Shown here piece by piece: positions 1-64,000 of a stretch of DNA of 64,000 nucleotides; the first letter of the stretch is position 1; the number at the start of each line of letters is the position of its first letter. Origin of the DNA: Actinomycetaceae bacterium (GTDB taxonomy: Bacteria; Actinomycetota; Actinomycetes; Actinomycetales; Actinomycetaceae); contig JAUMZK010000001.1 of assembly GCA_030528145.1 (NCBI GenBank), positions 62,001 through 126,000 on the forward strand, in the 5' to 3' direction. The notes under the pieces are model-generated. The model was given only the letters and a program-made list of their open reading frames with translations, was not told the DNA's origin and made no database searches. Made by a program: the position numbers and the translations under genes.

Positions 1-662
1 AGGTGGGCACTGCACTGTTAGTTTTAGACGCTTTGGAGCGCGGCGTTTCCTTTGACGACCTCCAGCTGCTGCGCCCCTTGCATGCCATACGCGTAATCAA
101 CCACGACCTGAGCGTGCAAACCAAAGTGGAACTGGCAAACGGAAGGTTCCTCACCGCCCTCGAAATACAAAAAGAATTTTTAGACCGCATAGACCCGAAT
201 TATCTGGGCGAAGTGGCGACCACCTGGGCAAAAGTACTAGAGGCTATTGCCTGCGGCGACTTGGATAAAATAGCTGCCGAGGTCGACTGGGCGGCAAAAT
301 ACCGTATCTTGCGGCGCGCCCGTCAAAAGCACGGATGGGAACTAGGCAGCGCACAAATACGGCGCTTAGATTTGGCATATCACGATATTTGCGATCTCGG
401 ACCAAAAATGCACGAACGCGGTCTGCTGCGTCCCATTGTCAATGCCGCTGCAACGCAAAAAGCCAAGGAAAAAGCGCCTTCTACCACCCGAGCTAACGTG
501 CGCGGCGCAGCTATTGCCAGTGCCCAGGCAAATCGCCTGGACCTGATGGCAGACTGGAGCCACTTGCGCTTGCAAACCCAGGAGACCATAGTTATAGACG
601 ACCCATTTGCCAACACTGACCCTAGGGTCAGTGAGCTCATTGAAAAAATGGAGACCAAATGA
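1..662 (+). CDS. pafA: Pup--protein ligase PafA, C-terminal part (5' end outside window)
   Basis: PafA attaches the small protein Pup to lysines of cytoplasmic proteins, marking them for the actinobacterial proteasome. Only the last ~220 residues are here and the reading frame stays open to the left edge. The segment VDWAAKYRILRRARQKHG, the LDLAYHDI motif, the TTRANVRG stretch and the tail DDPFANTDPRVSELIEKM match the PafA C-terminal domain. The related deamidase Dop has a different tail, so I prefer PafA over Dop. The stop codon overlaps the next start as ATGA, so the FKBP-like gene is translationally coupled. The GTG at position 3 lies inside the gene and is not the true start. Confidence 0.88.
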   Translation, partial: VGTALLVLDALERGVSFDDLQLLRPLHAIRVINHDLSVQTKVELANGRFLTALEIQKEFLDRIDPNYLGEVATTWAKVLEAIACGDLDKIAAEVDWAAKYRILRRARQKHGWELGSAQIRRLDLAYHDICDLGPKMHERGLLRPIVNAAATQKAKEKAPSTTRANVRGAAIASAQANRLDLMADWSHLRLQTQETIVIDDPFANTDPRVSELIEKMETK

Positions 663-1579
663 ACGAACTACCACCCCGGCAAATTCGCCGGCAGGGGCGT
701 CGCAAAGCCCAACTGCCGTGGCACAAAAAAATACTGCGCTACTGGCCAGTATTCGTCGGAGTGGTAATATCTGTACTCATACTGGGAACCATCTTTAGCT
801 TCGGTCCGAAAGGACCCCAAACAGAACCCGGGAAAATCTTGGTATCAGGCAACCTGGGGGCATTACCCATCGTCGAATTCGCCGCCCCTCTGGAAATCAA
901 AAAACCCGTAGTGTGGCAGGGAATACCCGGCAGTGGACGCCTGGTGGCAGTAGGAGACCCGGTCCTGTTAAAACTCACGGTTTTTGATGGTGATACCGGA
1001 AAAAACGAAAGTCCCGAGGGCAAACCGCAGATCGTCTTGTCACGTGCTTCCAACGAAGACCTGAGCAAAGAAATGTCCGCCGCCATAGTCGGACGTCGCG
1101 AGGGGACCCGCCTGGTGCTGGCACGCCCAGTATCAAAAGAAAACACACCAAAAATGGAAGTGGACGTCCTCGACATACTGCCCACCGCAGTACACGGACT
1201 AATCGAACAACCCAGTGACGCTCCTGTCAAAGTCGACACCGTAGACGAATTGCCAGAACTTGCCGCTATTACCGGACAAGTTCCGCACAGCCCTTATGTG
1301 GGCGTGATGATTCAGGGAAAAGGGGCACAAATTAATAACGAACGAAAAGTCGTGGTCCAATACGGAATATGGCGGTGGAAGGACAAAACAAAGATTGCCT
1401 ACACGTGGAAAAAAGACGGTCCACAACTGATCGACCTCGAAAAAACCTTCCCAGGGGTACGTACTTTAGTGACCGACCAACACTTAGGTTCGCGCCTGTT
1501 AATGGTAATTCCGGCGGATGAAGCGCGCGGCGCAGACGATTTGGTGGTAGTTGCTGATTTATTAGCGGTTCCGAACTGA
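659..1579 (+). CDS. Membrane-anchored protein with two degenerate FKBP-like repeats
   Basis: This 306-residue protein has a basic N-terminus, one membrane segment at about residues 30-48 and then an extracytoplasmic region. Two segments look like FKBP peptidyl-prolyl isomerase folds: the first runs from VGDPVLLKLTVFDGDTGK to MEVDVLDIL, the second from about residue 205 to LVVVADLLAV, with GSRLLMVIPADEARG resembling the usual FKBP GSRVLLVIPP-YG strand. The aromatic residues of a working FKBP pocket are mostly not evident, so enzymatic activity is doubtful. FKBP-type genes follow pafA in several actinobacteria, which supports the family call. It overlaps pafA by four bases. Function is inferred from family and position only. 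Confidence 0.6.
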   Translation: MNELPPRQIRRQGRRKAQLPWHKKILRYWPVFVGVVISVLILGTIFSFGPKGPQTEPGKILVSGNLGALPIVEFAAPLEIKKPVVWQGIPGSGRLVAVGDPVLLKLTVFDGDTGKNESPEGKPQIVLSRASNEDLSKEMSAAIVGRREGTRLVLARPVSKENTPKMEVDVLDILPTAVHGLIEQPSDAPVKVDTVDELPELAAITGQVPHSPYVGVMIQGKGAQINNERKVVVQYGIWRWKDKTKIAYTWKKDGPQLIDLEKTFPGVRTLVTDQHLGSRLLMVIPADEARGADDLVVVADLLAVPN

Positions 1580-1659
1580 GCATATTCAGGTAATATACAG
1601 ACGATTTTGTGATCGTTACCTCTTTCGCGTCTAATATAGGTAAGGCAGAAGGAGATGCG

Positions 1660-2493: not shown

Positions 2494-2506
2494 TGTTTAG
2501 GAACTG

Positions 2507-3394: not shown

Positions 3395-3418
3395 CGTCAA
3401 AATGGCAGTGAATGGAGA

Positions 3419-3430
3419 TATTCTAAAGAC
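3419..3430 (+). promoter_or_regulatory. Candidate -10 element of a leaderless pyk transcript
   Basis: TATTCT at 3419-3424 is followed by exactly six bases and then the pyk ATG. The only SD-like run (GGAG, 3414-3417) is 13 bases from the start, too far to work normally. The same TANNNT-N6-start spacing recurs at six other genes in the window. Confidence 0.45.
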
Positions 3431-4846
3431 ATGCGCAGAGCAAAAATAGTTTGTACTATCGGTCCGGCAACTGAGTCCCCAGAACAAGTGCAGGCACTGG
3501 TAGATGCCGGCATGGACGTTGCCCGAATCAATCGCTCTCACGGTTCTGCCAGTGAGCACGAGAAAGTTATTCGCAATGTGCGAGCCGCAGCGAAGTCTTC
3601 GGGACGTGCCGTAGCCGTTTTGGTTGACTTGCAAGGTCCCAAAATTCGCTTGGGCAAGTTTGAAAACGGCAAGGAGCTTTTGCATAAGGGCGACACGTTC
3701 ACTATAACCACGCGTGACGTTCTTGGCAGTGCCACTTTGGTGGGTACTACTTTTGCGGGGTTGCCGGGGGATTGTCGCCCTGGGGATCGGCTGCTAATCG
3801 ATGACGGTAATGTGGCGGTGCGGGTCACTTCAGTGACACAAACTGATGTGACTACCGTAGTTGAAGTTCCGGGTTACGTATCTGACCATAAGGGGTTGAA
3901 TCTGCCAGGGGTGGCAGTGTCCGTTCCAGCTTTATCAGATAAAGACCGTGAGGACTTACGGTGGGCGCTGCGCGTGGGTGCGGACATTGTGGCGTTGTCG
4001 TTTGTGCGCAGCGCTAAGGATGCACAGGACGTCCACGAAATTATGGCAGAAGAAGGCGTGCGCGTTCCCGTTATTGCCAAAATTGAAAAACCGCAGGCAG
4101 TTGAAAATTTGTTGGATATTGTTACTGCGTTCGACGGAATTATGGTGGCGCGCGGTGACCTCGGCGTGGAAATGCCTTTGGAAGCCGTACCTTTGGTGCA
4201 AAAGCGGGCTATTGAGCTGGCCAGGCGCAACGCGAAGCCGGTAATTGTGGCTACACAAGTGCTCGATTCTATGATTCACAACCCGCGTCCCACTCGTGCG
4301 GAAGCATCGGACTGTGCCAATGCGATTTTGGATGGTGCGGATGCCGTAATGCTTTCTGGGGAAACCTCCATTGGTGCGTACCCGATTGAGGCAGTGCGAA
4401 CTATGGCACGCATTTTGGAGAACGTCGAAGAAAACGGCGGAGAGCGCATCGCCCCACTGGGTTCCTACCCGAACACGCGCGGTGGGGTTATTACGAGGGC
4501 GGCTGCGGACATTGGCGAGCTCATGGACGTCAAGTTCTTGGTCACGTTCACCCAATCTGGGGATACAGCGCGGCGGCTATCGCGGTTGCGTTCGCCTATT
4601 CCAATGTTGGCGTTTACGCCTTTAGAGTCCACTCGCAGCCAGTTAGCGGTAACATGGGGCATGCAAACCTACCGTACGCCAGAGGTGCACCACACTGACG
4701 ATATGGTGCGTCAGGTGGATCATGTGTTACGTGATACTGGGCTTGCCGTCGAGGGCGACGAGATCGCTATTGTTGCGGGTATGCCGCCGGGCACGCCAGG
4801 GTCAACTAACTCGATTCGTTTGCACACTATTGGCGACGAAGTGTAG
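3431..4846 (+). CDS. pyk: Pyruvate kinase
   Basis: Converts phosphoenolpyruvate and ADP to pyruvate and ATP, the last step of glycolysis. At 471 residues it is full length. Visible motifs are RRAKIVCTIGPATES at the N-terminus, IAKIEKPQAVENL around residue 215, ARGDLGVEMP at about 239 (Mg and substrate site), ATQVLDSMIHNPRPTRAE at about 272 and the MLSGETSIGAYP loop. The C-terminal allosteric domain is present. A strong terminator follows, so pyk probably ends its transcription unit. Position after lgt is typical of actinobacteria. Confidence 0.97.
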   Translation: MRRAKIVCTIGPATESPEQVQALVDAGMDVARINRSHGSASEHEKVIRNVRAAAKSSGRAVAVLVDLQGPKIRLGKFENGKELLHKGDTFTITTRDVLGSATLVGTTFAGLPGDCRPGDRLLIDDGNVAVRVTSVTQTDVTTVVEVPGYVSDHKGLNLPGVAVSVPALSDKDREDLRWALRVGADIVALSFVRSAKDAQDVHEIMAEEGVRVPVIAKIEKPQAVENLLDIVTAFDGIMVARGDLGVEMPLEAVPLVQKRAIELARRNAKPVIVATQVLDSMIHNPRPTRAEASDCANAILDGADAVMLSGETSIGAYPIEAVRTMARILENVEENGGERIAPLGSYPNTRGGVITRAAADIGELMDVKFLVTFTQSGDTARRLSRLRSPIPMLAFTPLESTRSQLAVTWGMQTYRTPEVHHTDDMVRQVDHVLRDTGLAVEGDEIAIVAGMPPGTPGSTNSIRLHTIGDEV

Positions 4847-4863
4847 AAATACGCAGTTTTGTT

Positions 4864-4888
4864 GGGGGGCATCTGTGCGGTGCCCCCC
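4864..4888 (+). terminator. Rho-independent terminator of pyk
   Basis: GGGGGGCA (4864-4871) pairs perfectly with TGCCCCCC (4881-4888) around a 9-base loop, followed by an AT-rich, T-containing tail. It lies 17 bases after the pyk stop codon. Confidence 0.85.
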
Positions 4889-5341
4889 AAATATTTGCTT
4901 TTTATACTTATCGCAGCCAACTGAGGACGCTGCGTTCGCTTGCCCCCAGTCCCTTAGGGGCTTAGTTGCAGGGGAACCTGCGTGAGTGGGAGATTGCCGT
5001 TTTTGGTGAGAAAAATGCAAGTTTACGGCAGCTCACGAAAATATGAGGTCCCAGCGTCAAGGTGTTGCTAACGGACTTTATCGGTCCGCCTGCTTACCTA
5101 TAGGTCAACTTTTTACCTTGTAAGGTTTTAGCGTCGCTAATGTGACCGGCACTAACGTAACCCAGGAGGCTTTCGCCGCAGTCGCCCTCAGCAATGTTTT
5201 CTCCCATGGGGCAGTAGGGTTTTGCTTTGGGCTTTTTCGTGGCAGTATTTGGTGATGATTTGGCGTACTTGGTCGACTTGGTGTGCTAGTGCGCGTATGA
5301 GTTGGGTTTTGGTGCGTGCTAGTTTGGTTTCTCTCATGCCG
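4889..5341. other. Gene-free stretch with several small dyads
   Basis: No convincing coding region is visible. Local structure includes a GCAGG/CCTGC hairpin near 4968-4981, CGGAC (5072-5076) with GTCCG (5084-5088), the perfect palindrome ACCTATAGGT (5096-5105) and ACCTT-GT-AAGGT near 5115-5126. On the minus strand a 49-codon reading frame starting near 5338 (MRETKLARTKTQ...) lies just beyond the integrase relic; I do not recognise it. The region may be debris of the same integrated element or may carry a structured RNA. Confidence 0.4.
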
Positions 5342-5575
5342 TTAGTGTGTGTATCCTCGTCGTACTGCGTAGGACAGGGCTCCTAGCATGAGTGAGCGGG
5401 CTCGTTTGGCTGCGAGGAGGGTTTTTTCTTTGCTTAAACGGTCTAAAAATTCTTGGCATGTTGGTCCGTTAATTGTTCTTACTGGTTGTGAGTCAATGTA
5501 GGCGATAATGCTTTTTCCTTGCTGGAAATATGTGATTTTGCCAAAAGATCCTGGTTTTAATGTAGGGCGGACCAT
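5342..5575 (-). pseudogene. Tyrosine-recombinase (phage-type integrase) remnant
   Basis: The 77-residue frame joins two parts of an actinobacterial phage-type integrase. The beginning (RPTLKPGSFGKITY) resembles the N-terminal segment of such integrases. The remainder (FLDRLSKEKTLLAAKRARS, LGALSYAVRRG) resembles the end of the core-binding domain. Roughly 80-100 residues that normally lie between them are missing, and the whole catalytic domain with its R-H-R-Y residues is absent. It lies about 330 bases from the 3' end of tRNA-Leu and in the same orientation, which is where the integrase of a tRNA-integrated element is expected. I read it as the relic of a lost element; the identification rests on short similarity. 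Confidence 0.5.
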
Positions 5576-5905
5576 GAGCCTCCCAACCAGTATTTTATGT
5601 CACATTTTTTGTGGTAGGTGGTGTTGGTTTCGGTTTTGTAAAGCTTTGGTCTGATCTTGTTTTCGCGTCATCTAGCAAGGGTTTTGACTGGTCTTGAGGG
5701 GTGGGTAGCCAGGTTTTTCGGGGTAAGCATTTTTTGCACGGCTGGTAAATACAGCCAGACCACAAAAATAATGAATAAGTATTCTGGGTGTCGTATAAAA
5801 CTGGGGGTGTTTGGTGGGAAATACACAAGCTTGCGACAGTTTACGGCAATAAAATGCAAAATGATGTGGGTTTAACCGGCAAAACCGTATCATTTACCCA
5901 AAAAG
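5576..5905. other. Gene-free stretch between integrase relic and tRNA-Leu
   Basis: Several short open frames occur here on both strands but none has a recognisable product or ribosome binding site. I searched by eye for a repeat of the tRNA 3' end that would mark an attachment site and found none. A short T-run follows the tRNA 3' end on the minus strand and could terminate it. Confidence 0.4.
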
Positions 5906-5979
5906 TACCCTGGGTGGGAGTCGAACCCACAACATGCCGATTTTGAGTCGACCGCCTCTGCCAGTTGGGCCACCAGGGC
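5906..5979 (-). tRNA. tRNA-Leu (anticodon CAA)
   Basis: The minus strand folds as a cloverleaf: acceptor GCCCTGG with CCAGGGT and discriminator A, a short D stem, anticodon stem GTCGA/TCGGC with loop CTCAAAA (anticodon at 5943-5945), a five-base variable region, and T arm GTGGG-TTCGACT-CCCAC. CCA is not encoded. CAA reads UUG, hence Leu. The variable region is short, unlike the long arm of most bacterial tRNA-Leu; I believe a similar short form occurs in other actinobacteria but cannot check it here. Confidence 0.88.
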
Positions 5980-6011
5980 AACATCGCTGTCTTGCTGCAA
6001 CGAATTCATAC

Positions 6012-6023
6012 TAAACTATAACC
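6012..6023 (+). promoter_or_regulatory. Candidate -10 element of a leaderless pdtaR transcript
   Basis: TAAACT at 6012-6017 lies exactly six bases before the GTG start of pdtaR. No Shine-Dalgarno sequence precedes the start. No clear -35 hexamer is seen at standard spacing. Confidence 0.45.
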
Positions 6024-6635
6024 GTGAATCAAAATAAATCCAACTTGAAAACTACGGCTACATCCCAGCGACGCGTACTCGTAGTAGAAGACGAGCCACT
6101 CATTCGTCTGGACATTGCAGAAACGCTAACCGAGGCCGGCTATGACGTTATTGGCGAAGCCACCAATGGCGAAGACGCCGTCACACAGGCCCTCGAACTT
6201 GAACCTGACCTGGTAGTGATGGACGTAAAAATGCCAAAAATGGACGGCATTAGCGCGGCCGAAAAAATCCTCGACGAAATCAAGTGTGCAGTCGTGATGC
6301 TCACAGCTTTTAGCCAAACGGAGTTAGTAGAAAGGGCGCGCGATGCCGGCGCAATGGCTTATGTTGTGAAACCTTTCACTCCCGCTGAGCTGCTTCCTGC
6401 GGTAGAAATCGCATTTTCTCGGCATGCAGAAATGGTGTCTTTAGAGGAAGAAATTGCGGACCTTTCTGAACGCTTCAACACGCGCAAAGCGGTGGAACGC
6501 GCCAAAGGCTTACTGATGGAACGCATGGGCATGACTGAACCAGAGGCATTCCGGTGGATCCAAAAGACTTCAATGGACAGAAGGCTGTCGATGCGTGAAG
6601 TGGCTGATGCTGTTATAGAGCAGGTAGGCGAATAA
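6024..6635 (+). CDS. pdtaR: ANTAR-domain response regulator (PdtaR type)
   Basis: A 203-residue two-domain regulator. The N-terminal receiver domain has the acidic pair in VVEDEP, the phosphoacceptor Asp67 in VVMDVKMPKMDG, a conserved Thr in VVMLTAFS and Lys in YVVKPF. The C-terminal ~55 residues (RKAVERAKGLLMERMGMTE) form an ANTAR RNA-binding domain, which in this family acts as an antiterminator on nascent transcripts. The partner kinase PdtaS is not in the window. No ribosome binding site precedes the GTG start. A strong terminator follows. Placement before polA-rpsA matches other actinobacteria. Confidence 0.93.
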   Translation: MNQNKSNLKTTATSQRRVLVVEDEPLIRLDIAETLTEAGYDVIGEATNGEDAVTQALELEPDLVVMDVKMPKMDGISAAEKILDEIKCAVVMLTAFSQTELVERARDAGAMAYVVKPFTPAELLPAVEIAFSRHAEMVSLEEEIADLSERFNTRKAVERAKGLLMERMGMTEPEAFRWIQKTSMDRRLSMREVADAVIEQVGE

Positions 6636-6648
6636 GTCAGGTTTGAAG

Positions 6649-6689
6649 AGCTCCCCAAATCACGAAAATTAAAATCGTTTTGGGGAGCT
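6649..6689. terminator. Bidirectional terminator between pdtaR and the thioesterase gene
   Basis: AGCTCCCCAAA (6649-6659) is a perfect complement of TTTGGGGAGCT (6679-6689), with a 19-base loop. The arms provide A-rich and T-rich flanks on both strands. It lies 13 bases after the pdtaR stop and about 150 bases beyond the convergent thioesterase gene; nothing else is seen in that gap. Confidence 0.75.
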
Positions 6690-6841
6690 ATATTTCATCG
6701 CTTATGTATTGTAGGTGAAATCACAAGGACGCTGAATGGTCGTTATCACCATATCCTGCGGTCAACCGTTACTTCGGGCAGAAACGTCAGCACTATTTGA
6801 TACCCACATGAAATGCGCCGCTACAGCCGCGCAAAAACCTA

Positions 6842-7243
6842 CTACGGTTTACGGGGAGCAACGAAACGCGCTGTCATTCGCGCCGTAGCGAAGTGCCTGC
6901 CGCGGTCGTCCTCGAAAGAAATCAAAAAAACGCCCTGCGACCTGGTTGCCCCCACGAGGCGAGCACTGGCACGCACCATCCCCTCTTTAACCGAGGCAAT
7001 ATGGGAAATGCTCAGCTCTGTGCCCACCGAAACGCAGCCTGGTGGAACATGATTTACCGCCGCCACCGAAGCTACTGCTTCTGCTAACGCCGCCGAAGCA
7101 CCCCCATGCAGCAACCCCAAAGGCTGCGTGTTGCCTGCCACGGGCATTTCCATTACCGTGACTTCTTTAGTGTTCTCCACAACTCGCATATTCATGCGTT
7201 CCATGAGTGTCCCTGACCAGGACCTCTCGTCTAAATTGCTCAT
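6842..7243 (-). CDS. PaaI-family hotdog thioesterase
   Basis: A 133-residue single hotdog-fold protein. The helix motif QPLGLLHGGASAALAE (about residues 40-55) is the PaaI/MenI signature, and VSVGTELSISHI is the following strand. Members hydrolyse acyl-CoA thioesters such as phenylacetyl-CoA or dihydroxynaphthoyl-CoA; the substrate here cannot be told from sequence. Its start lies within 20 bp of the divergent polA start, so the two share a very short control region. A thioesterase gene near polA and pdtaR also occurs in mycobacteria. Confidence 0.88.
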   Translation of the reverse strand: MSNLDERSWSGTLMERMNMRVVENTKEVTVMEMPVAGNTQPLGLLHGGASAALAEAVASVAAVNHVPPGCVSVGTELSISHIASVKEGMVRASARLVGATRSQGVFLISFEDDRGRHFATARMTARFVAPRKP

Positions 7244-7262
7244 GTTTTATAGGCTTTCATAC

Positions 7263-32896: not shown

Positions 32897-33962
32897 CCAC
32901 CTCGGCAATTTCTATCGCTACTGCTGAAAGCGCGAGCGCGACACCATTCAGTTCCTCTGGATCAATGTACTCGGTTTGGTCATACCAACGCATCCACCGG
33001 TCAACGTGCATCCTTGCCAACTGATTCTGATACCCTTGCCACATATCATCAGCAAGTGTCAGTGTTACGTGAGCACCGTCCTCGTCCCAATGCAACATTA
33101 CCTGGGAACTACAAGGCGGAATTAATGCGTAATAACCCGAGTTTTTTAGTGTCACAGCGTACAAAGCACTATCGAAACCCTCACTGAGCGGCCAGCGCGG
33201 CAAATCGTCCTCGGAAATAACATTTTCCCCATGAAAAGCAGAAATAATATTTCCGTCCATTTGCCCTTCAAGAATGGAAAACGGTGGAATATCGGGACCA
33301 AAATCGTCAAATCTGGTCACATCCTGAGGGTCTTCTACACGATACTCGGCGACTTGCTCAACTTCCGTTCCCTGGGTTCGGCTAACTGCCAGCAAATGCG
33401 GAGCCGTCTGGGCCAAGCGCGCCGCAGAGACCTTAAAAACCTCGAATTTAGCGGGCGTAAGCCGCGTGTGCTCGTCTAACCACTCCTGGAATTTACGGCT
33501 GCTGCCAGCAAAAGAATCCGTGTGCGTGACGTCAAAACCTGCACGTGAAATAGACAATTCCACGCGTTTTATTTCTGCTTCTAAAGAATCTCCAGCCCAA
33601 TCAAAACTTTGATCAAAGTCGTGGTTACGCCGGTGTAACTGACCTTTCGCATCCGAACGGCAAATCCAGTCGTACCACAACGCAAGAGGCTGCACCGAGC
33701 CCATTTGCACAAATAAATCGGGGTGAACCATCTGCACCGGAACACCTTTTTCATAGGCTTCCGCATACCAGTCGTCCTCTTCCCAAATTTCGAGGTCGAA
33801 CACCCGCGTTTTCATTTGGATGTCTAGGAACTCCACGCGATAAGTGGGAAGGTTTTGCCGCGACGCCACTTTAATAAAATCAGTCGGATCCAGCCGCACG
33901 CCGGCGACCGGGGGCAGATCTAAAAGTGACTTGGCTGCCGGACTATCTGCCAGTGTTGTCAC
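32868..33962 (-). CDS. Unrecognised acidic cytoplasmic protein of the pentose phosphate operon
   Basis: This 364-residue protein has no family I can name. It is soluble and acidic, rich in Trp, Asp and Glu, with blocks such as LEIWEEDDWYAEAYEKG, ALWYDWICRSDAKGQ and LARMHVDRWMRWYDQTEY. No nucleotide-binding, catalytic or DNA-binding motif stands out. The GTG start overlaps the pgl stop codon, so it is translationally coupled to 6-phosphogluconolactonase. Base composition and motif content are like the neighbours, so it does not look recently acquired. Translational coupling suggests a role near glucose 6-phosphate oxidation, but that is only inference. Confidence 0.75.
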   Translation of the reverse strand: MTTLADSPAAKSLLDLPPVAGVRLDPTDFIKVASRQNLPTYRVEFLDIQMKTRVFDLEIWEEDDWYAEAYEKGVPVQMVHPDLFVQMGSVQPLALWYDWICRSDAKGQLHRRNHDFDQSFDWAGDSLEAEIKRVELSISRAGFDVTHTDSFAGSSRKFQEWLDEHTRLTPAKFEVFKVSAARLAQTAPHLLAVSRTQGTEVEQVAEYRVEDPQDVTRFDDFGPDIPPFSILEGQMDGNIISAFHGENVISEDDLPRWPLSEGFDSALYAVTLKNSGYYALIPPCSSQVMLHWDEDGAHVTLTLADDMWQGYQNQLARMHVDRWMRWYDQTEYIDPEELNGVALALSAVAIEIAEVEDAADQTLG

Positions 33963-39289: not shown

Positions 39290-40204
39290 ATGAACCCTTT
39301 AGAGTCCTTAGTTGGCATGTATCTGACGCACCTGCGCGTGGAAAAAGGGTTTTCTAAGAACACGCTGGCGGCATACCGGCGGGATTTGGCGCGGTTTACG
39401 GATTGGGGAAAAGAAAACTTGGTTACTTCGATAGGGCAAGTTAGTACCCAAGGAGTGACCGATTTCCTCATAAGTTTGCGTGAAGGCGGTAGCGGGCGTT
39501 CGGCGCTGGCAACTTCGAGTGTGGCGCGGGTACTTTCGGCAGTTCGCGGCTTGACTAAATTTGCTGTTTTAGAGGGCGAAATAGCGGTAGATCCTGCCGC
39601 TTCAGTTCCCATGCCGGTTCCGCCAAAGCTGTTACCTAAAGCGTTGCCGGTGGAGACAGTAGCGAAACTGTTGGCAGTGCCCTCGGACTCGGTCAAGGGT
39701 TTGCGTGACAAAGCTTTGTTGGAGGTACTTTATTCTACAGGCGCACGTATCAGCGAGGTTGTGGGTCTGCATATTGACGATATTGACGAGGACGGCACGT
39801 TTTTGCGCGTTGTCGGTAAGGGGGATAAGGAACGCCTGGTACCACTGGGGCAATACGCGCGCAAGAGTCTAGATGAATACTTGGTTCGTTCCCGCCCCGC
39901 GCTGGCTGCAAAAGGAAAAGGCACCTCGCTGCTGTTTTTAAATAGCAGGGGCGCGCCCTTGTCCCGCCAGTCAGCATGGCTGATTTTGCAGGAAGCCGCC
40001 AAGAAGGCAGAAATTGATGTTCACGTTTCTCCCCACACGTTGCGGCATTCTTTCGCTACTCATTTGCTTGAGGGCGGTGCGGACGTGCGCGTTGTCCAAG
40101 AGCTTTTGGGCCATGCCTCGGTTACCACCACCCAGATTTATACCAAAATCAGTGACGGTACCTTGCGGGAAGTGTACAGGAGTGCGCATCCGCGCGCGCT
40201 TTAG
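39290..40204 (+). CDS. xerD: Site-specific tyrosine recombinase XerD
   Basis: XerD with XerC resolves chromosome dimers at dif. The 304-residue protein has the N-terminal SAM-like DNA-binding domain (VEKGFSKNTLAAYRRDLARF) and the catalytic residues Arg in STGARISEVVGL, Lys in VVGKGDKERLVPL, His and Arg in SPHTLRHSFATHLLEGGAD, His in ELLGHASVTTTQ and the nucleophile Tyr in IYTKI. It starts the plus-strand cluster xerD-parA-scpA-scpB. This is the housekeeping enzyme, not a mobile-element integrase. Confidence 0.95.
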   Translation: MNPLESLVGMYLTHLRVEKGFSKNTLAAYRRDLARFTDWGKENLVTSIGQVSTQGVTDFLISLREGGSGRSALATSSVARVLSAVRGLTKFAVLEGEIAVDPAASVPMPVPPKLLPKALPVETVAKLLAVPSDSVKGLRDKALLEVLYSTGARISEVVGLHIDDIDEDGTFLRVVGKGDKERLVPLGQYARKSLDEYLVRSRPALAAKGKGTSLLFLNSRGAPLSRQSAWLILQEAAKKAEIDVHVSPHTLRHSFATHLLEGGADVRVVQELLGHASVTTTQIYTKISDGTLREVYRSAHPRAL

Positions 40205-46582: not shown

Positions 46583-47479
46583 GTGAAAAAGTGGAATCCT
46601 GACGGTCCAAATATGGTATTTCATGCTGATAACTTGCCGGTATTAGCTGCTTTGCCCAGTGCAGCGTTTCAAATGATATATATTGATCCCCCTTTCAATA
46701 CTGGCAAAGTGCAGATGCGTAAAAACGTGAAAACCGTGCGCAGCCCAGAAGGAGCCCGCACAGGTTTTAAAGGACTAAATTACGAAACTGTGCGTGGACA
46801 AATAACCGCCTACAACGATGCTTTTGCGGATTATTGGCAGTTTTTGACCCCCCGTTTAGAACACGCCTGGCGGTTGCTAAAGCCTTCTGGCACATTATAT
46901 TTACACCTAGATTTTCGCGAAGTACACTACGCGAAGGTACTTTTAGACGCACTGTTTGGGCGGGAATGCTTTTTAAACGAAATAATTTGGGCCTACGACT
47001 ATGGGGGGCGGTCCAAAAAGAAGTGGCCGGCAAAACACGACAATATTCTGGTTTACGTCAAAGATCCAAAACAATACTATTTTGACGCCTCCGAGGTCGA
47101 CCGCGAACCTTACATGGCACCGGGTCTGGTCAGTGCCGAAAAAGTAGCGCGTGGAAAATTGCCTACAGATGTTTGGTGGCACACTATAGTGTCCCCAACA
47201 GGGAAAGAAAAAACTGGTTACGCCACCCAAAAACCCGAAGGCATTTTGCGGCGCATGGTGGCTGCCAGCAGCCAGCCTAAAGACTGGGTTTTGGACTTTT
47301 TTGCCGGCAGCGGGACAACCGGTGCGGTAGCCGCGAAACTGGATCGACGCTTCGTCCTCATCGACGAAAATCCGCAAGCTATAGAGATTATAGAAAAACG
47401 ACTGCAGAAAATAGCGGCAAGCTTTCGCAAGGTCAGTGCGCTCCCGCCTAAGCGACAGACTCTACCTGGTAGCCTTTAG
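46583..47479 (+). CDS. Solitary DNA methyltransferase (N6-adenine/N4-cytosine, beta class)
   Basis: The 298-residue protein has motif IV IDPPFNTG at about residues 34-41 and motif I LDFFAGSGTTGAVAAKL at about 238, with a probable target-recognition region between them. That order (IV, TRD, I) defines beta-class amino-methyltransferases. VLIDENPQAIEIIEKRL follows motif I as the SAM-binding strand. No restriction endonuclease, specificity subunit or transposase is adjacent, so it is probably an orphan enzyme. The GTG start has AAAGGA seven bases upstream. It lies 83 bp after tRNA-Pro and the tetR start follows its stop by two bases. Its recognition site cannot be read from sequence. Confidence 0.88.
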   Translation: MKKWNPDGPNMVFHADNLPVLAALPSAAFQMIYIDPPFNTGKVQMRKNVKTVRSPEGARTGFKGLNYETVRGQITAYNDAFADYWQFLTPRLEHAWRLLKPSGTLYLHLDFREVHYAKVLLDALFGRECFLNEIIWAYDYGGRSKKKWPAKHDNILVYVKDPKQYYFDASEVDREPYMAPGLVSAEKVARGKLPTDVWWHTIVSPTGKEKTGYATQKPEGILRRMVAASSQPKDWVLDFFAGSGTTGAVAAKLDRRFVLIDENPQAIEIIEKRLQKIAASFRKVSALPPKRQTLPGSL

Positions 47480-52563: not shown

Positions 52564-52602
52564 AAGGCTCCGTAACCAGGTGCATCCAAAAGTCACAAGA
52601 AA

Positions 52603-58600: not shown

Positions 58601-61600
58601 AAGGTGAACTGTCGCAGTTGGTGAGTGTCCTCGACGCAGAACTGGGGCAAAACTGGGTGAAGACCGTAACCCCAGCGTTCGATCCGGCGCGTGCCGTGCT
58701 GCTCGATGACAGGTGGGCCTGGGCAAAAGAGGACCTGGCACGCGTTGCCAGCGGACAGCTGGACCCGGATACGCTTTCGCTGAACACTTTTGTTGGCGCC
58801 GGCGAGCAACTGCGGGATCTGGCGAAATGGTACTCTGTCGGGGCAAATAAGACAGAGCGCGATTTCTTTGAACGCGTCCAAAATGCCGCCATGGCAGATG
58901 ACGAGGGCGCCTTCGCCGGTGAAGTTGCACTGGTTACGGGGGCAGCGCCGCATTCGATTGCCGCAGCTGTGGTTGCGAGACTGCTAGAGGAAGGGGCGAC
59001 GGTCATAATCACGGCTTCATCTGTGAATAATGCCCGCCTCAGTTTCGCCAAAGAACTGTACGCCCGTCACGCTCGCCCAGGCGCTGCCCTGTGGTTGGTG
59101 CCAGCGAATATGGCGTCGCTGCGAGATGTTGACAGTTTGATACAGTGGATCGGAGCGCCCTTCTATGAAAGCGTTGGAGGGCAACACGCGCTGGTCAAAC
59201 CCGCATTGCGTCCGAGCTTATTCTTCCCCTTTGCGGCGCCACGCGTGTACGGCACTTTGGGTTCAGATACGCACGCGGCAATTGCTCAAGAACGGTTGCT
59301 GTTGTGGTCCGTAGAACGGGCTATTTACCAGCTGGCAAATTTGGATAGTGCGAACAATATTGACCATCGCGTACACGTAGTCTTACCGGGATCACCCAAC
59401 CGCGGCATTTTCGGCGGAGATGGTGCATACGGTGGCGCCAAAGCTGCCTTCGATACCATTGTCAACAGGTGGCACGCCGAAACCGGTTGGTCAGAAAAAG
59501 TGACGTTGGCACACCCACGCATTGGCTGGGTTCAAGGTACATCGCTAATGGGCGGAAACGACCGCCTTGTACCTGCGGTTGAAGCTGCTGGCGTTCACGT
59601 ATACAAAACCTCGGAAATAGCCTTAGAACTGCTCGCACTTGCAAGCAAGTCTGCGCGACAGCACGCGAAAGAAAGTCCGTTAGTAGCCGACCTCACCGGG
59701 GGACTAGCAGAGATCAAACTCGATTTTGCAGAACTTGCAAAAGCCAGCGAACGCGACCCCGCAAACCATATGGATGGCAGTGCAAACGCGAAACCTAGCA
59801 TTTCGGCGCTGCCGACGCGGCGTCCTCGCAAACTTGCGGAACCACTACAGTGGGGCAAGGTTACCCAAAATCTTGACGAACAAGTAGTGATCGTTGGCAT
59901 TGGTGATGTGTCGACGTGGGGTTCAGGACGCACCCGTGCCCAGGCAGAACTTGGGGATGGAGAAGTCGAACTTACAGCAGCGGGCGTCCTCGAGCTGGCG
60001 TGGATGATGAACCTGGTACACTGGGCAGAAACACCCACTCCCGGTTGGTACGATCAGGAAGAAAAACCAGTCGAAGAAGCGGAAATATTCGACCGATTCC
60101 ACGACCAAGTGTTAGCGCGCTGTGGTATTCGCGAAGTAGTTGACGACTCTATTTTGGTGGAACGCGGGTCCCATGACGTAGCTAGCGTGTACCTGCAAAC
60201 CGAACAGACCTTCCCGGTCAACAGCGAGGACGATGCGCGCGCTTACCTCAGTGCCGACTCCACGCACACTGAGATTTTCTACGACACTGCGGCGGGAACC
60301 TGGATGGTTACGAAGAAACCGGGCGCCCTCGTGCGGGTTCCACGAAAGGCCACCCTAAGCCGTTTCGTGGGCGGGCAAATGCCCACAGATTTTGATCCCG
60401 CAAAATGGGGTATTCCCGCCACCATGGTGGAAGCTTTGGACCGCATGGCCGTGTGGAATTTGGTAACCGCAGTGGATGCGTTTACCAGTTCCGGTTTTAG
60501 TCCTGCTGAACTTCTCAGGGCTTTGCATCCAGCGGATGTTTCTTCCACCCAAGGTACGGGCATCGGCGGGATGGAATCTTTACGAAAAGTGTTCCTAGAC
60601 CGCTTCCTGGGCGAAGATCGACCGCAAGATATTTTGCAAGAAGCTCTGCCTAATGTCGTTGCTGCCCACACCATGCAAAGTTACATTGGGGGCTATGGAC
60701 AAATGGTCCACCCTGTTGGTGCGTGTGCTACTGCAGCTGTGTCTATCGAGGACGCCCTCGACAAGATCCGGTTGGGCAAGTCGGATTTCGTTGTCGCTGG
60801 CGGTATTGACGATATTTCGGTGGAGTCCTTAACGGGCTTTGGGAACATGAACGCAACTGCGGATACTCAGGAAATGCTCGATCGGGGGATCAGCCCGGAT
60901 CGCATCTCCCGCGCTGGTGACCGCCGCCGTGGGGGCTTCCTGGAAGCCCAAGGTGGTGGCACGGTACTGCTGACTCGTGGCAGTATTGCGGCAGACTTGG
61001 GGTTGCCAGTGCTGGGCGTAGTGGCGTACGCGCGGTCATTTGCTGACGGGGCTCACACGTCGATTCCCGCTCCTGGTCTGGGAGCTGTAGCTGCCGGTCG
61101 TGGTGGTGATAAATCAGAGCTGGTGCGAGCTCTAACCAACTTGGGGTTAGATGCCGATGACCTTGCGGTGGTTTCCAAACACGACACGTCCACTAAAGCG
61201 AACGATCCCAATGAAGCCGAACTGCATTCTTTGCTAGCAAAAGCGTGGGGTCGCAGCACCGGAAACCCACTGTACGTCGTCAGCCAAAAGACGGTAACTG
61301 GGCACGCGAAAGGTGGGTCAGCCGTATTCCAAACTGCAGGATTGGTGGAAATATTTACCAACCAACGTATTCCTGGAAACCGCTGTTTGGACTGCTTGGA
61401 CCCACAAATGCGTCAATACCAGCCATTTGTGTGGTTGCGCCGACCTTTGGACACGGCAAAAAATCCGGTAAAAGCGGGCTTGTTAACATCGCTCGGCTTT
61501 GGACACGTCGCAGCTTTGATCGCGTTGGTACATCCCAGCGCTTTTGAAACCGCGTTGCAGGCAGAACGGGGTGTCGAGGACGCACAGCGGTGGCGTAAGA

Positions 61601-61782
61601 AGGCTAACGCCAGGCTGGATGCCGGCAGTGAACACTTGCAAGAGGCAATGCTCGGACGCAGGCCGCTGTTCGAACCGGTTGCTGGGCGACGGTTGCCAGG
61701 ACAAAACGATCACGAGGTCGAAGTAGCATTGCTTCTAAATCCCACCGCTCGCCTGGGCATAGATGGTCTTTACCACCTATGA
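52603..61782 (+). CDS. fas: Type I fatty acid synthase (multifunctional)
   Basis: A 3059-residue megasynthase of the bacterial/fungal FAS-I type. Domains in order: acetyltransferase with Ser131 in AGHSQG; enoyl reductase from about residue 390 (LPGMTPTTVDPE, WAELAGGGQ); hotdog dehydratase near 1190 (FAKISGDFNPIHVA); malonyl/palmitoyl transferase with Ser1417 in AGHSLGEYNA; acyl carrier with phosphopantetheine Ser1803 in TGGVSSKRNQ; ketoreductase from about 2108 (LVTGAAPHSIAAAVV); ketosynthase with Cys2708 in GACATAAVSIED and His in VSKHDTSTKAND and VTGHAKGGSA. The usual integrated phosphopantetheinyl transferase is absent, and acpS follows. Length is normal for the family. The exact start (52603 or 52633) is unclear. 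Confidence 0.97.
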   Translation: MRKSKNERIKMTKTFLSQLNSNFALIFAGQGTAWAKNLKELGSLPKLGQELREILARAAEITGLVALEMETKVPGATWRLRQILEGADPEPADNSPAISGPGIALTQLGALAQLYSEGIIPSNATALAGHSQGTLGVSLAQTYGDTEGEAGVIALAMLIGHAAASAGNEHNLRPHAGATPMLAISGEEVGVLDQILDEFLPHTENRTVVRALRNSHNAAVFSGNPAELAEFCEYVQSRRTFSENKPVHASALQFDWLRIEAPFHNPVLEGAYQQYQEWAKRISEKLPANRDQLARQILLETEDWESQVRAALKEGARYFIDLGPSTQLGKITQSIIEGSHAVVVDGTSVRARMSLAMPGYQPPKPIDWSQWAPKVVKLPNGRTVVDTAFTRLTGKSPIILPGMTPTTVDPEIVAAAANAGNWAELAGGGQYSAEVFENHHKQLRKLLKPGCTAAFNTMFFDRFMWNLQFGVTKIVPKARREGSPIDAVTIAAGIPEVAEADELIRGLVEDGFSYICFKPGTVEQIKQVLEIADANPDFRFIVQVEDGHSGGHHSWEDLDYLLLQTYGQIRRTKNVVLAVGGGIATPAIGADYIWGTWAEKYGRAPMPVDAVLVGTVAMACAEAKTSPQVKELLKSTAGVDGDGWVGRSEIRGGMTSGLSHLGADMHEIANSSAAASALIHQVGSDPQEIARRRAEIISALDKTAKPYFGDVAEMTYAQWLRRFVELSSPWADPTWQDRAFDLFHRVEARLHPADHGEIPTLFAEMTDLDDAQVALERLLDAYPCAEDERVSASDAAWFPVLCRKHHKPLPFVPVLDTELAKWWGTDTLWQSQDPRFSADAVRVIPGPRSVAGIDRINEPVGELFARFEDEVARRADSLPRAVFARLRAAEDATTFLRACPSIEWAGNVVANPACLMPEDTEIVCQDGKYSIVVNCRNTTEAAVAGDTHGEGVQAIALPLLLPSSVSSGGLPVIDMERLSVSAYDLLAGAAGVGTTTVNGDEITALPGVDKNQTEDGAAPFGTVKFSFTWGQKLGISHRAVTGGALSGRLAEIVPDALVGPVWPAIYAALGSAKHDGIPVIEGLVNAVHLDHTVRLVAALPNPGETVQVVSQCGQLADSSAGRVVTVRVQLRRNDRTFAHMTERFAIRGRIASKQPPAAPPSPADNQVMTDTPRSFLRRVLVNAPADMTAFAKISGDFNPIHVARAAAGLSGLSAPLVHGMWLSATVQHAISASGIAGSDVPARTGLIRGGEDALGTIAGWTYQMHGMVNLGDQVEITVERVGHLGTAPVLEATCRIDGQVVSIGRAVMAPPVLAYVYPGQGIQRQGMGMEKMTPVMREVWQRADRFTRSRLGFSIEHIVRANPTEITVKGKVFRHSEGVLNLTQFTQVALATLAYAQTQQLRANGVFDENAVYAGHSLGEYNALSCCAGIFPFEQVLEIVFQRGSAMHHLVSRDASGASNYRLGALRPDQMGISEDEVAGFVRQVAHRSGEFLQIVNLNLAGKQYAIAGTIAGMKALEESAGQAAAKCGGERPFMLIPGIDVPFHSEKLQGGVASFKQKLQELIPADLDPTPLIGRYIPNLVAKPFALTKEFAESILQVVPAQGVQDLLDLGWEKALENPHQTARTLLIELLAWQFASPVRWIETQDLLFTSRGGMGVDRLIEVGLGAAPTLANLASRTLALPSRDFFRHRQVDILNVERDAQKVNMTDVQTAPVASETLADTVEKSASVEKRETAEAVTSDLTPAPKAVNSPSEPVAQAAPVGPVPVRPREAMKILLAWSNKVTTDQIEDGDTVDVLTGGVSSKRNQLLMDMAAELGVPTIEGATEATMDQLFDAVDKAASGYVAFGQVLEDAITATLRKLFGGVSLTPAHVEKRVRDIWGLGADWTERTRAQILLGTRGGDSVRGGQLATLPQTVANEDEANALVDQALQQVAAELNVALTMPGTGSSGDNAMVDSAALANLGEKILGADGVLANNARQLLHSLGIDMRSQNGGAGTEGELSQLVSVLDAELGQNWVKTVTPAFDPARAVLLDDRWAWAKEDLARVASGQLDPDTLSLNTFVGAGEQLRDLAKWYSVGANKTERDFFERVQNAAMADDEGAFAGEVALVTGAAPHSIAAAVVARLLEEGATVIITASSVNNARLSFAKELYARHARPGAALWLVPANMASLRDVDSLIQWIGAPFYESVGGQHALVKPALRPSLFFPFAAPRVYGTLGSDTHAAIAQERLLLWSVERAIYQLANLDSANNIDHRVHVVLPGSPNRGIFGGDGAYGGAKAAFDTIVNRWHAETGWSEKVTLAHPRIGWVQGTSLMGGNDRLVPAVEAAGVHVYKTSEIALELLALASKSARQHAKESPLVADLTGGLAEIKLDFAELAKASERDPANHMDGSANAKPSISALPTRRPRKLAEPLQWGKVTQNLDEQVVIVGIGDVSTWGSGRTRAQAELGDGEVELTAAGVLELAWMMNLVHWAETPTPGWYDQEEKPVEEAEIFDRFHDQVLARCGIREVVDDSILVERGSHDVASVYLQTEQTFPVNSEDDARAYLSADSTHTEIFYDTAAGTWMVTKKPGALVRVPRKATLSRFVGGQMPTDFDPAKWGIPATMVEALDRMAVWNLVTAVDAFTSSGFSPAELLRALHPADVSSTQGTGIGGMESLRKVFLDRFLGEDRPQDILQEALPNVVAAHTMQSYIGGYGQMVHPVGACATAAVSIEDALDKIRLGKSDFVVAGGIDDISVESLTGFGNMNATADTQEMLDRGISPDRISRAGDRRRGGFLEAQGGGTVLLTRGSIAADLGLPVLGVVAYARSFADGAHTSIPAPGLGAVAAGRGGDKSELVRALTNLGLDADDLAVVSKHDTSTKANDPNEAELHSLLAKAWGRSTGNPLYVVSQKTVTGHAKGGSAVFQTAGLVEIFTNQRIPGNRCLDCLDPQMRQYQPFVWLRRPLDTAKNPVKAGLLTSLGFGHVAALIALVHPSAFETALQAERGVEDAQRWRKKANARLDAGSEHLQEAMLGRRPLFEPVAGRRLPGQNDHEVEVALLLNPTARLGIDGLYHL

Positions 61783-62324: not shown

Positions 62325-62366
62325 ATTCGCATAATTTTGCGAAATACTACCTCGAAAGGGAATTAA

Positions 62367-62966
62367 ATGAACACTACTGCGTATGCGCCAGTTTTGGTCG
62401 ACGCCTATGGACTGACAAACAGCAAGATAAAAAATTGCGCACTGGTAGCAGCGGGAGCGGCAGTCGTGGGATTGGCGGCGCAGGTTTCTGTTCCCCTGTG
62501 GCCTGTCCCAGTAACTGGGCAAACCTTGGCGGTTCTGGTTGTGGGGGCCATGCTAGGTGCCCGACGGGGCGCCGCCGCATTAGGTTTGTATGTGGTGGCA
62601 GGACTGACCGGGGTGCCGTGGTTTGCCGACTTCGGGGGTGGACCCGCCTACGTTTTACACCCCTCTTTTGGCTTTGTTGTTGGTTTTATTGGGGCCGCTT
62701 GGGTGGCGGGATGGGCTGCTGAACGCAAATGGGATAGGGGAGCATTGCGCGCTTTCGGGGCTTTCGCCGTTGCTTCCTTAATTCCTTTCGTGGTGGGAAT
62801 TCCTTACATGTGGGCGGTTCTTGATTTCGCCTTCGGCAAATCACTTTCCTTGTGGGGGGCACTGCAAGCAGGTTTAATCCCGTTCATTCCGGGCGGCATT
62901 ATTAAAGCAATTATTGCGGCTCTTATTTTGCGTCTGGCATGGAAGCTACCGAGGATGAAACACTAG
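62367..62966 (+). CDS. bioY: BioY, biotin-specific S component of an ECF transporter
   Basis: A 199-residue membrane protein with six hydrophobic segments. The BioY signature is visible in VPLWPVPVTGQTLAVLVVGA and GPAYVLHPSFGFVVGF. BioY binds biotin and works alone or with the shared EcfAT module, which is not in the window. AAGGGA precedes the ATG. Biotin import fits the upstream birA and carboxylase genes. The 3' end overlaps the convergent antiporter gene by 44 bases. Confidence 0.95.
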   Translation: MNTTAYAPVLVDAYGLTNSKIKNCALVAAGAAVVGLAAQVSVPLWPVPVTGQTLAVLVVGAMLGARRGAAALGLYVVAGLTGVPWFADFGGGPAYVLHPSFGFVVGFIGAAWVAGWAAERKWDRGALRAFGAFAVASLIPFVVGIPYMWAVLDFAFGKSLSLWGALQAGLIPFIPGGIIKAIIAALILRLAWKLPRMKH

Positions 62967-64000
62967 TTTTTGTCTCGTCCTCAATTTGCGCCTGGCTGTG
63001 GTCCACGAATTCACCGTGGGCCACAGCCAGGTCAGCTAGTTCCGCACCCGCACCGCCGTAAATGTAGACGACCTCGTCCGCGCCGGCACGCAATAACACT
63101 TCTTTTTGGTCCGGGTAACGGCAGGCAACTACGAGGCGGTAGCTATCAGCTTTTTCGCTGGTGGGGATTTTGATGCGGCGCGTGGCAAACTGGGTGAACA
63201 AAGGAATATTGTCGTGGTCTTCGCAAATGGGGACTGTGCTGAGCACGAACCTGATATTTGGGCAGCCGGCGAAGGCTTCCCACAAGTTGGGGTCGGTGGC
63301 ATCGCCCTCGAAAACTTTGGCGCCGCGCGAGCGCAACTTTTCCAAGCGGTGCAGGTCCGATTCGATGCCCACGGGTTTTAGCCCATACACGTTCGCAAGA
63401 CGGTAATAGGTGGCTTTGCCTACGCGTCCCATTCCGAGGACGATCGCGTCAGAATTACTAAAGTCCCACGGTTCCGGTTTGTCACCAATACCGGCAAGGC
63501 TAGGAAGTTTCTGGAGCGCTGATTCGGGTAGGTGCAGAGCGTTCAGTTCGGCGCGTCCCGCCTTACTTTGACGCATTACCCAAGTGAGCAAGCGCGAATC
63601 GTAACGGAAGACAATGGCTGAGCCCACGAAGGATCCGGCTACTGCAATGGCGATCGCACTGAGCCAATCGGCGCTGAGCCAGCCAGCTGCCACCGCCAGT
63701 GACGCTATTACGAGGGCGAACTCAGAGTAATTGGTAAGCGTTGCGGAAGACATCGCGCTGAGGCGGGGCGCTGCCCGAAAAACCCGGAAGAGCAGTAGGA
63801 ATACCAGTGACTTTAGAGGGAGTACCGCCAGTAACATCAGGGCCATGACAGCGAGCTGAATGTTAGGCAGACCGCGCAATCCGACCTCGACAAAGAAAGC
63901 GATGAGCAGCAGTTCTTTAATAGGTCCGATGCGCGCGTTCATCTCGCGCGCTTGGGCGGTATAGGATACGAGGACGCCCACAACGAGCGCTCCGAGGTCG
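62923..64000 (-). CDS. CPA2-type cation:proton antiporter with TrkA-N domain (5' end outside window)
   Basis: The visible ~358 residues hold the last five or so membrane helices of a KefB-like exchanger (LLLIAFFVEVGLRGLP, TNYSEFALVIASLAVAAGWL) and a cytoplasmic TrkA-N/RCK NAD-binding domain starting with AIVLGMGRVGKATYYRL. The frame stays open to the right edge. Homologues export K+ or Na+ against protons, gated by the RCK domain. The C-terminus ends inside bioY, and the last ~40 codons contain a long inverted repeat. Confidence 0.88.
   Translation of the reverse strand, partial: DLGALVVGVLVSYTAQAREMNARIGPIKELLLIAFFVEVGLRGLPNIQLAVMALMLLAVLPLKSLVFLLLFRVFRAAPRLSAMSSATLTNYSEFALVIASLAVAAGWLSADWLSAIAIAVAGSFVGSAIVFRYDSRLLTWVMRQSKAGRAELNALHLPESALQKLPSLAGIGDKPEPWDFSNSDAIVLGMGRVGKATYYRLANVYGLKPVGIESDLHRLEKLRSRGAKVFEGDATDPNLWEAFAGCPNIRFVLSTVPICEDHDNIPLFTQFATRRIKIPTSEKADSYRLVVACRYPDQKEVLLRAGADEVVYIYGGAGAELADLAVAHGEFVDHSQAQIEDETKTSVSSSVASMPDAK
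62991..63031. repeat. 17-bp near-perfect inverted repeat within the antiporter 3' end
   Basis: The left arm 62991-63007 (CCTGGCTGTGGTCCACG) and the right arm 63015-63031 differ at one base, which is still a G-U pair in RNA read on the plus strand; the loop is seven bases. It begins 25 bases after the bioY stop and lies in coding sequence on the other strand. It could end bioY transcription although no T-run follows. Confidence 0.65.

Follow-up and report, generated by a model that had tools for sequence, protein, structure and literature searches.

Why should one short DNA word recur, on both strands, throughout the genes of an Actinomycetaceae bacterium? The question is raised by a stretch of 64,000 nucleotides from the genome of this organism (C5:62001-126000, called the window below, always at its full length), in which a first-pass annotation had noted the octamer CGAGGRCG, dense and in both orientations, and had likened it to the DNA uptake sequences of Neisseria and Pasteurellaceae. 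Exact counts bear out the density: the window holds 104 copies, 42 on the plus strand and 62 on the minus strand. The heptamer GAGGRCG, put at about 130 copies by hand (about 70 and 60 by strand), numbers 146, with 68 on the plus and 78 on the minus strand; the excess stands, and the exact figures do not. A third-order Markov model of the window predicts 8.0 copies of the octamer where 104 are seen, and 200 synonymous codon shuffles of the 42 window open reading frames (ORFs; 58,128 bp) give a mean of 7.2 and a maximum of 15 where 99 are seen; neither background reproduces the count. Here and in all coding tests, ORFs are the longest non-overlapping open frames, uncurated. In the whole genome (17 contigs, 1,854,458 bases) there are 3,300 copies, 1,652 forward and 1,648 reverse over 1.85 Mb, or 28 times the number found for the reversed pattern used as a control (66 + 52 = 118), and the density stays between 1.45 and 3.1 per kb in each of 19 genome stretches, so that the word is far above control outside the window too. 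The observation of a dense word is confirmed at genome scale, and is stronger than first thought.

The extent of the word was drawn from a first sample of 408,853 bp and from an enlarged one of 876,109 bp (47% of the genome), which includes both the first sample and the window. Against third-order expectation in the first sample, CGAGGACG has 395 copies where 22 are expected (17.8 times), CGAGGGCG 360 where 31 are expected (11.7 times) and CGAGGTCG 104 where 16 are expected (6.5 times), while CGAGGCCG, with 4 copies, shows no enrichment. The annotation had proposed a look at one-mismatch neighbours, and most of those of CGAGGACG are unenriched: apart from the forms just named, clear enrichment is confined to those that begin with T (4.5 times) or A (3.5 times) instead of C, and the rest lie at 0.3-1.7 times expectation in the same sample. 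The core, CGAGGDCG, has 1,870 copies in the enlarged sample, or 2.13 per kb; with the first base left free, the counts are C 1,870, T 410, A 187 and G 126. The octamer is a better unit than the heptamer, because the first C belongs to the word. In 349,902 coding bp, CGAGGRCG occurs 680 times, 324 times on the sense and 356 times on the antisense strand; a plain codon shuffle leaves 32 and 21 copies, respectively, and a stricter shuffle that keeps both neighbouring bases leaves 53 and 26, a total of 79. For words of the CGAGGNCG class in ORFs of the enlarged sample, the corresponding figures are 1,686 before and 182 after codon shuffle. The near-equal use of the two gene strands also rules out ribosome binding, which the annotation had already judged inadequate as an explanation.

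The conserved stretch extends beyond the core, to a footprint of approximately WTKnCGAGGDCGVH. Upstream, position -4 is A or T in 69% of copies, position -3 is T in 51% and A in 9%, and position -2 is G or T in 71%; downstream, T is scarce at +8 (12%), G at +9 (5%) and A at +12 (9%). Divided by frame and strand, genic copies fall into six classes, and the main flank preferences are found in each of these as well as in 193 intergenic copies; at -3, the preference is weaker in the small frame-0 sense class, which has 37 copies. Depletion of A at -3 and +12 is also seen in 67 comparison loci (L022-L088, mostly Microbacteriaceae) and is partly an effect of codon position; the T at -3 and the scarcity of G at +9 are absent from these loci. 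Since the flanks are much alike in all frames and in intergenic DNA, it is the DNA and not the protein that is conserved. A footprint of about 14 to 17 bp is the picture that one reader binding double-stranded DNA would be expected to leave.

Genes pay for the word in codons. Glutamate is encoded outside the word by 10,472 GAA and 3,061 GAG codons, and all 732 Glu codons lying wholly inside the word are GAG; for leucine, 647 of the 647 codons wholly inside are CTC, as compared to 2,209 of 23,976 outside. The import of GAG and CTC codons, claimed from the window by eye, is borne out. Although the word is found in coding and intergenic DNA and in all frames, one frame (GAG-GRC or GYC-CTC) takes 88% of the genic copies in the sense direction and 76% of those in the antisense direction. 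The copies do not lean toward less conserved protein positions in comparisons with G001 and G002, two genomes of the same genus as the window's organism, and the lean is weak in comparison with G007 (p 0.058).

Spacing of the words is near Poisson, with a coefficient of variation of 0.95, except that neighbours closer than 20 bp are too few (13 vs 43). With GC skew taken as a proxy for origin and terminus, orientation is independent of replication: there are 236 and 261 words on the two strands where skew is positive, and 249 and 235 where it is negative. Together with the even split of genome copies by strand, this rules out a replication-polar signal such as the FtsK-orienting polar sequences (KOPS), in line with the lack of strand skew noted in the window; an apparent run of all-plus words on one contig was dropped, as the sequence of that contig carries words on both strands. 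Neighbouring words alternate in orientation more often than expected (585 of 1,001 neighbours in the first sample, where the mean over 2,000 label permutations is 500 +/- 15 and the maximum 552), and so they do in the enlarged sample (1,051 of 1,845). Alternation persists for gaps above 600 bp (280 of 477), and pairs of the same orientation are scarce at distances under 200 bp. Among 1,870 words of the enlarged sample, 76 opposite pairs, as a raw count, lie no more than 40 bp apart. Among intergenic spacers, the density per kb is 2.25 in convergent (49 in 21.8 kb), 1.58 in co-directional and 1.04 in divergent ones (19 in 18.3 kb).

Related genomes carry related words. The closest named match of the window's PolA is Winkia neuii (60% identity), followed by further Actinomycetaceae, Trueperella and Arcanobacterium among them, although records nearest to the window may be excluded from this comparison. 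Relative to codon shuffle, the CGAGGNCG class is enriched 9.3 times in the own genome, 4.0 times in G002, 3.7 in G007, 3.6 in G013, 3.3 in G001, 2.2 in G021 and 1.7 in G011. The sixth base is G in 54-56% of copies in G001, G002 and G007, and A in 46% and G in 43% in the own genome. Some relatives have a one-base variant, CGACGNCG, in place of the word, and others show neither. By codon shuffle, CGACGNCG is found in G033 69 times vs 10.4 expected (6.6 times) in a first sample and 88 vs 18 (4.8 times) in a larger one, in G026 94 vs 26 (3.7 times), and in G003 44 vs 14; single loci give 38 vs 6.3 in Arcanobacterium phocae, 35 vs 7.2 in A. bovis, 44 vs 12.1 in Trueperella bonasi and 29 vs 9.2 in Actinobaculum suis. 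The loci dense in CGACGNCG are L011, L018, L019 and L020. CGACGACG is a dialect form of the word; CGACGTCG, being palindromic, was counted on both strands, observed and expected alike. The two dialects change places between genomes: CGACGDCG is under its control in the own genome (141/135 vs 294/296 by strand) and far above it in G026 (1,182/1,170 vs 181/168).

A wider survey used the ratio of CGAGGRCG to its reversed control, a measure that is uncorrected for codon use and can mislead. The own genome, with 28, tops the 161 family genomes, and ratios of approximately 7.8 to 12.7 are found in G007, G182 (7,388 copies in 2.6 Mb), G112, G092, G137, G172, G109, G029, G148 and G178; the warning case is G029, where a control ratio of about 9 goes with a CGAGGNCG class of only 81 vs 52 by codon shuffle. 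Codon-shuffle ratios in the 67 loci L022-L088 are 0.4-2.3. A tree of UvrA, built by a quick method for 29 rows, 21 of them labelled by dialect (G009 and G010, with no UvrA ORF, were dropped, and among 13 named loci only L021 had UvrA), is poorly resolved; dialect groups follow it only partly, with 8 changes by a bare count, and neither word reaches the threshold in 9 of the 21 labelled rows and, narrowly, in G021.

Several other short-word patterns appeared in the same material. CGAGGRCG is far under its control in G144 (16/11 vs 111/91) and in some other genomes of g32, as if avoided. In eight Microbacteriaceae loci chosen as rich-looking (L031, L038, L041, L049, L053, L058, L067 and L072), CGGCATCC occurs 105 times vs 30 expected by codon shuffle (3.5 times), and in all 67 loci L022-L088 359 times vs 181 (2 times); it is perhaps another dense word. 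Three Agrococcus loci (L024, L025 and L032) have arrays of 20-bp tandem repeats of the type TGAGTGGCGCCTCCCGCAGG near polA. Two palindromes exceed codon shuffle in 40-kb samples of G018 and G003, namely CCTCGAGG (14 genic sites vs 4.5) and AAGCTT (25 vs 7.9).

At 2.13 words per kb, 0.13 gaps of at least 4.5 kb are expected in the enlarged sample, and three are found. One, which reaches the start of its contig, contains a serine recombinase gene close to a tRNA. In another, with a GC of 0.48, there is an HTH_21 fragment of the IS3 type, and inspection by eye adds an ABC-transporter ATPase. The last, with a GC of 0.44, encodes a radical-SAM/SPASM protein together with an MFS protein. All three are foreign-looking DNA. 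A 3.4-kb gap holds an Abi_2 gene and a 2.5-kb gap a weaker Abi_2 match; there are further gaps of 3.7 kb (to the end of a stretch) and 3.0 kb, and those of 2.4-2.6 kb are ordinary by eye.

The genome also encodes candidate machinery for DNA uptake, in answer to the annotation's proposal to look for competence genes. A comEC gene is present on contig C11, with comEA (SLBB and helix-hairpin-helix domains) directly upstream; dprA is present; and a Tad-type ATPase is encoded at two loci, of which one also has a T2SSF protein and, with borderline scores, TadE-like ORFs. Transformation of Micrococcus luteus requires both tad clusters, and tad is reported to occur frequently together with comEA/comEC among actinobacteria (PMC4322843). 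A match to PF00437 at E below 1e-100, the level of other families in the order, was found in none of 37 family genomes, which we read as genomes without a type IVa pilus. In the genomes searched, the own included, ComEC is present in 58 of 59 and the Tad-type ATPase in 59 of 59; correlating the word with either protein was therefore given up, since near-universal genes offer no discrimination. The open frame of ComEC is short (approximately 340-565 residues) in the own genome (L150:9633-11117), as well as in G001, G002, G007, G011, G013, G021 and some others, and measures 700-1,400 residues in many relatives; the own ComEC shows only the Competence domain of Pfam.

In the window itself (1..64000), CGAGGDCG occurs 126 times, in genes and in spacers, 53 times on the plus and 73 times on the minus strand, the 104 copies of CGAGGRCG included. 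On the plus strand, the words begin at 278, 4494, 4750, 7409, 8252, 9335, 10943, 12501, 13950, 14841, 18633, 18691, 20885, 21222, 23309, 24410, 25853, 27469, 32052, 33791, 33979, 34665, 35274, 39787, 41331, 41971, 43327, 45011, 46066, 47092, 47655, 48380, 49247, 49445, 51687, 54126, 54234, 54957, 55209, 55269, 55449, 55641, 57024, 58359, 58902, 60225, 60747, 61575, 61713, 63435, 63711, 63969 and 63993. Those on the minus strand, by first base in plus coordinates, stand at 155, 1165, 1432, 2896, 6907, 7811, 8930, 9143, 11686, 12034, 13023, 13257, 14403, 16184, 17830, 18836, 19691, 20519, 21827, 23370, 23391, 23739, 24824, 24914, 25238, 26233, 28501, 28567, 29303, 30896, 31587, 31845, 32463, 33077, 33206, 34309, 35355, 35870, 36101, 37240, 37525, 37708, 38479, 38557, 40400, 41574, 41922, 42139, 42893, 43639, 43696, 43876, 45992, 47904, 48502, 49926, 51201, 51813, 52797, 53172, 54432, 55041, 56136, 57907, 59821, 59985, 60324, 60753, 61913, 62276, 63069, 63303 and 63882. 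Examples of the full footprint, WTKnCGAGGRCGVH, are found at 39783..39796 on the plus strand (core 39787-39794) and at 33204..33217 on the minus strand (core 33206-33213). Within the window, words lie farthest apart at 4750..6907, where the gap of 2,157 bp from one word to the next contains a tRNA gene (5906..5979, minus strand; Rfam RF00005) and an integrase-like fragment, a 77-residue ORF (5345..5575, minus strand) with a weak match to the central domain of phage integrase (E 8e-4; 20 bits, as compared to a Pfam cut-off of 27), which is probably a remnant of a tRNA-targeted element. Elsewhere in the window, a single ORF of 3,059 residues (52603-61782, plus strand) is, from its size, a candidate type I fatty acid synthase.

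What, then, is the word for? We would give even chances to the reading in which CGAGGDCG and its flanks form a DNA uptake sequence that a Tad-pilus competence machine recognises. A surface receptor of this machine would bind the footprint in double-stranded DNA of lysed kin and favour its import; the receptor may be a Tad/Flp minor pilin or some other protein that acts before ComEA and ComEC, and the imported DNA would be recombined by DprA and RecA. Word-bearing DNA would be taken up and recombined more often, and copies born by mutation would spread. Such an uptake bias would explain why the word is enriched and evenly dense, why it disregards orientation and frame, why its gaps fall in foreign DNA and why dialects exist. 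We infer that the competence genes may make the cell competent, that the receptor would read the word, and that uptake bias would drive its abundance. A broader proposition, sequence-specific uptake in actinobacteria with a word of the family's own (core CGASGNCG), one-base dialects between genera, a Tad/Flp-pilus machine and a receptor unrelated to ComP, has in our estimate a chance just short of even.

Several observations weigh against this account. The receptor is hypothetical, and uptake-sequence-like is the term that we use for the word. Single copies turn over and are little conserved between relatives: with any base allowed at the sixth position, 6 of 50 alignable copies are kept in G002, 4 of 40 in G001 and 2 of 56 in G007, where other 8-mers in the same frame are identical in 2-3% of cases. 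The proposed check on orthologues thus yielded related words and dialects, and not conservation of single copies. The Arcanobacterium loci L013 and L021 are without the CGACGNCG excess of their relatives, in the samples drawn from several family genomes neither word exceeds shuffle, and the control ratio ranges from 0.7 to 11.8 within one genus (g10) and from 1.1 to 10.6 within another (g16). With ComEC and the Tad ATPase near-universal, the machinery fails to predict which species carry the word. The excess alternation of orientations does not follow from this account, for an orientation-blind receptor predicts none. Close opposite pairs at 12-50 bp show no clear excess (46 vs 41 expected), by which terminator hairpins of the kind known in Haemophilus were also rejected; there is no gene-end bias, gene quintiles being nearly flat, unlike in Pasteurellaceae; and the window, with polA and uvrA, B and C, is no richer than the genome (1.62 vs 1.78 per kb). 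The likeness to Neisseria and Pasteurellaceae that the annotation had seen holds for density, lack of polarity, coding tolerance, flanks and dialects, and fails for gene-end bias, inverted pairs and the alternation. Its broader suggestion, that the DNA word is under selection or drive, is upheld by most of the sequence tests run, and its reading as an uptake word in part only.

Other explanations meet the same observations less well. One is a methylation-coupled iterated word, comparable to the highly iterated palindrome (HIP1) of cyanobacteria, in which a solitary methyltransferase would mark the adenine of the word and the use of the mark, in repair, replication timing or the nucleoid, would keep the density. 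The window does encode a solitary DNA methyltransferase of the N6-adenine type (46583..47479, plus strand; 298 residues), between der/tRNA and a TetR regulator/birA, with no adjoining restriction gene; its homologue in G002 is 75% identical, though among different neighbour genes. Open frames of 285-311 residues are found in four CGAGG genomes (G000, G001, G002 and G007) and also in G003, and HIP1 and its relatives have been tied to methyltransferases (PMC4390886). In the ten genomes searched, however, no match of such size occurs in G026 and G033, which have CGACG words, or in G013, G021 and G011. Neighbours altered at the adenine that would be methylated are not specially avoided, and CGAGGDCG is not a palindrome. 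The footprint, of at least 14 positions, is longer than usual methyltransferase sites. Nor could 5-methylcytosine methyltransferases be the common cause: the own genome has two, and they are missing in 4 of the 10 genomes. On balance, we regard a methylation-coupled word as unlikely.

No less unlikely, and no more, is a Chi-like, orientation-specific site of recombination or repair, read by a helicase-nuclease of the AdnAB type and dense each way so that breaks would soon meet one. Next to each other and beside one Tad locus lie two genes for helicase-nucleases with UvrD and PD-(D/E)XK domains, which we infer to be AdnA and AdnB, and the alternation of orientations with the scarcity of same-orientation pairs below 200 bp is what would be expected if each orientation were spaced separately. 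Against this, orientation shows no bias by GC skew, and classical Chi sites are skewed; moreover, the excess over the codon null is far above that known for Chi, and known Chi sites are shorter than the footprint.

We would place third, as improbable too, a site bound by some abundant protein of the nucleoid or of chromosome organisation, which would coat the chromosome evenly. Near-Poisson spacing, occurrence in genes as well as spacers, a footprint as long as a protein would bind and the poverty of divergent, promoter-bearing spacers relative to convergent ones would all suit such a protein. We know of no nucleoid-protein site, however, that is enriched about tenfold over the codon null throughout coding DNA, and the wide variation of enrichment among related genomes is difficult to reconcile with a core chromosomal protein. 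Least credible of all is that codon usage, protein composition or mutation bias produced the word as a by-product, in spite of the one frame that takes most genic copies and of copy-rich high-GC relatives without strong codon-null excess, as codon-preserving shuffles remove more than 85% of copies, flanks are much alike in all frames and spacers, one-base neighbours are mostly unenriched and loci L022-L088 reach only the low ratios given above by the same shuffle; an artefact of codons or composition is refuted by the two codon-preserving shuffles and the Markov model.

As far as titles and the beginnings of abstracts go, in literature with few subscription papers, an uptake word has not been reported for Actinomycetaceae or any other actinobacteria; in the literature searched, again with few subscription papers, no paper has two of five spellings tried for the word. 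An overview of the family mentions neither competence, nor uptake, nor transformation (PMC4224338). A 2020 paper names, in the portion available, only Pasteurellaceae and Neisseriaceae for strong sequence-specific DNA uptake (PMC7811141). If the uptake reading is true, the word would be a third, independent case, found in Gram-positive actinobacteria whose pilus is of a different type; kin-recognition words would appear to evolve repeatedly, and the Tad pilus would gain a sequence-reading role. The old question why such words exist could then be put to the test in this family, and addition of the word to DNA could aid laboratory transformation of these organisms.

The DNA uptake sequences (DUS) of Neisseriaceae come in eight dialects of approximately 940 to 5,900 copies per genome, some of them one base apart (PMC3630211); their receptor is the minor pilin ComP (PMC6370729), and their distribution has served to find integrated foreign elements (PMC7371117). 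The present word resembles them in its thousands of copies in a small genome and in one-base dialects between related species. It differs in that the words are unrelated, its host is an actinobacterium, monoderm and equipped with Tad-type loci, and inverted pairs are in no clear excess. The uptake signal sequences (USS) of Pasteurellaceae have two subclade dialects in one family and AT-rich flanks (PMC1626085), occur about once per kb in Haemophilus, where uptake between sites can be 1000-fold lower (PMC7811141), and lean to gene ends (PMC2346458); a bias of both DUS and USS to genome-maintenance genes has been reported (cited in PMC2346458). Density here is of the same order, one per 0.5 kb, and the T-rich flanks of the core recall the AT-rich flanks of USS, whereas word and host are unrelated and the copies here show no lean to gene termini. 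In contrast with the hosts of USS, actinobacteria of this kind have no outer membrane.

With HIP1 of cyanobacteria, the word shares density, coding tolerance, replacement words in relatives and a possible link to a solitary methyltransferase (PMC4390886). Unlike HIP1, CGAGGDCG is no palindrome, and some dialect-bearing relatives lack the methyltransferase. Chi and KOPS are likewise short G-rich octamers scattered through the genome; the present word differs from them in having no replication polarity by GC skew, and in an excess over the codon null that is far larger. The Flp/Tad transformation system of M. luteus, in whose description a term search finds no mention of an uptake sequence, resembles the present case in machinery: two tad loci together with comEA/comEC in an actinobacterium (PMC4322843).

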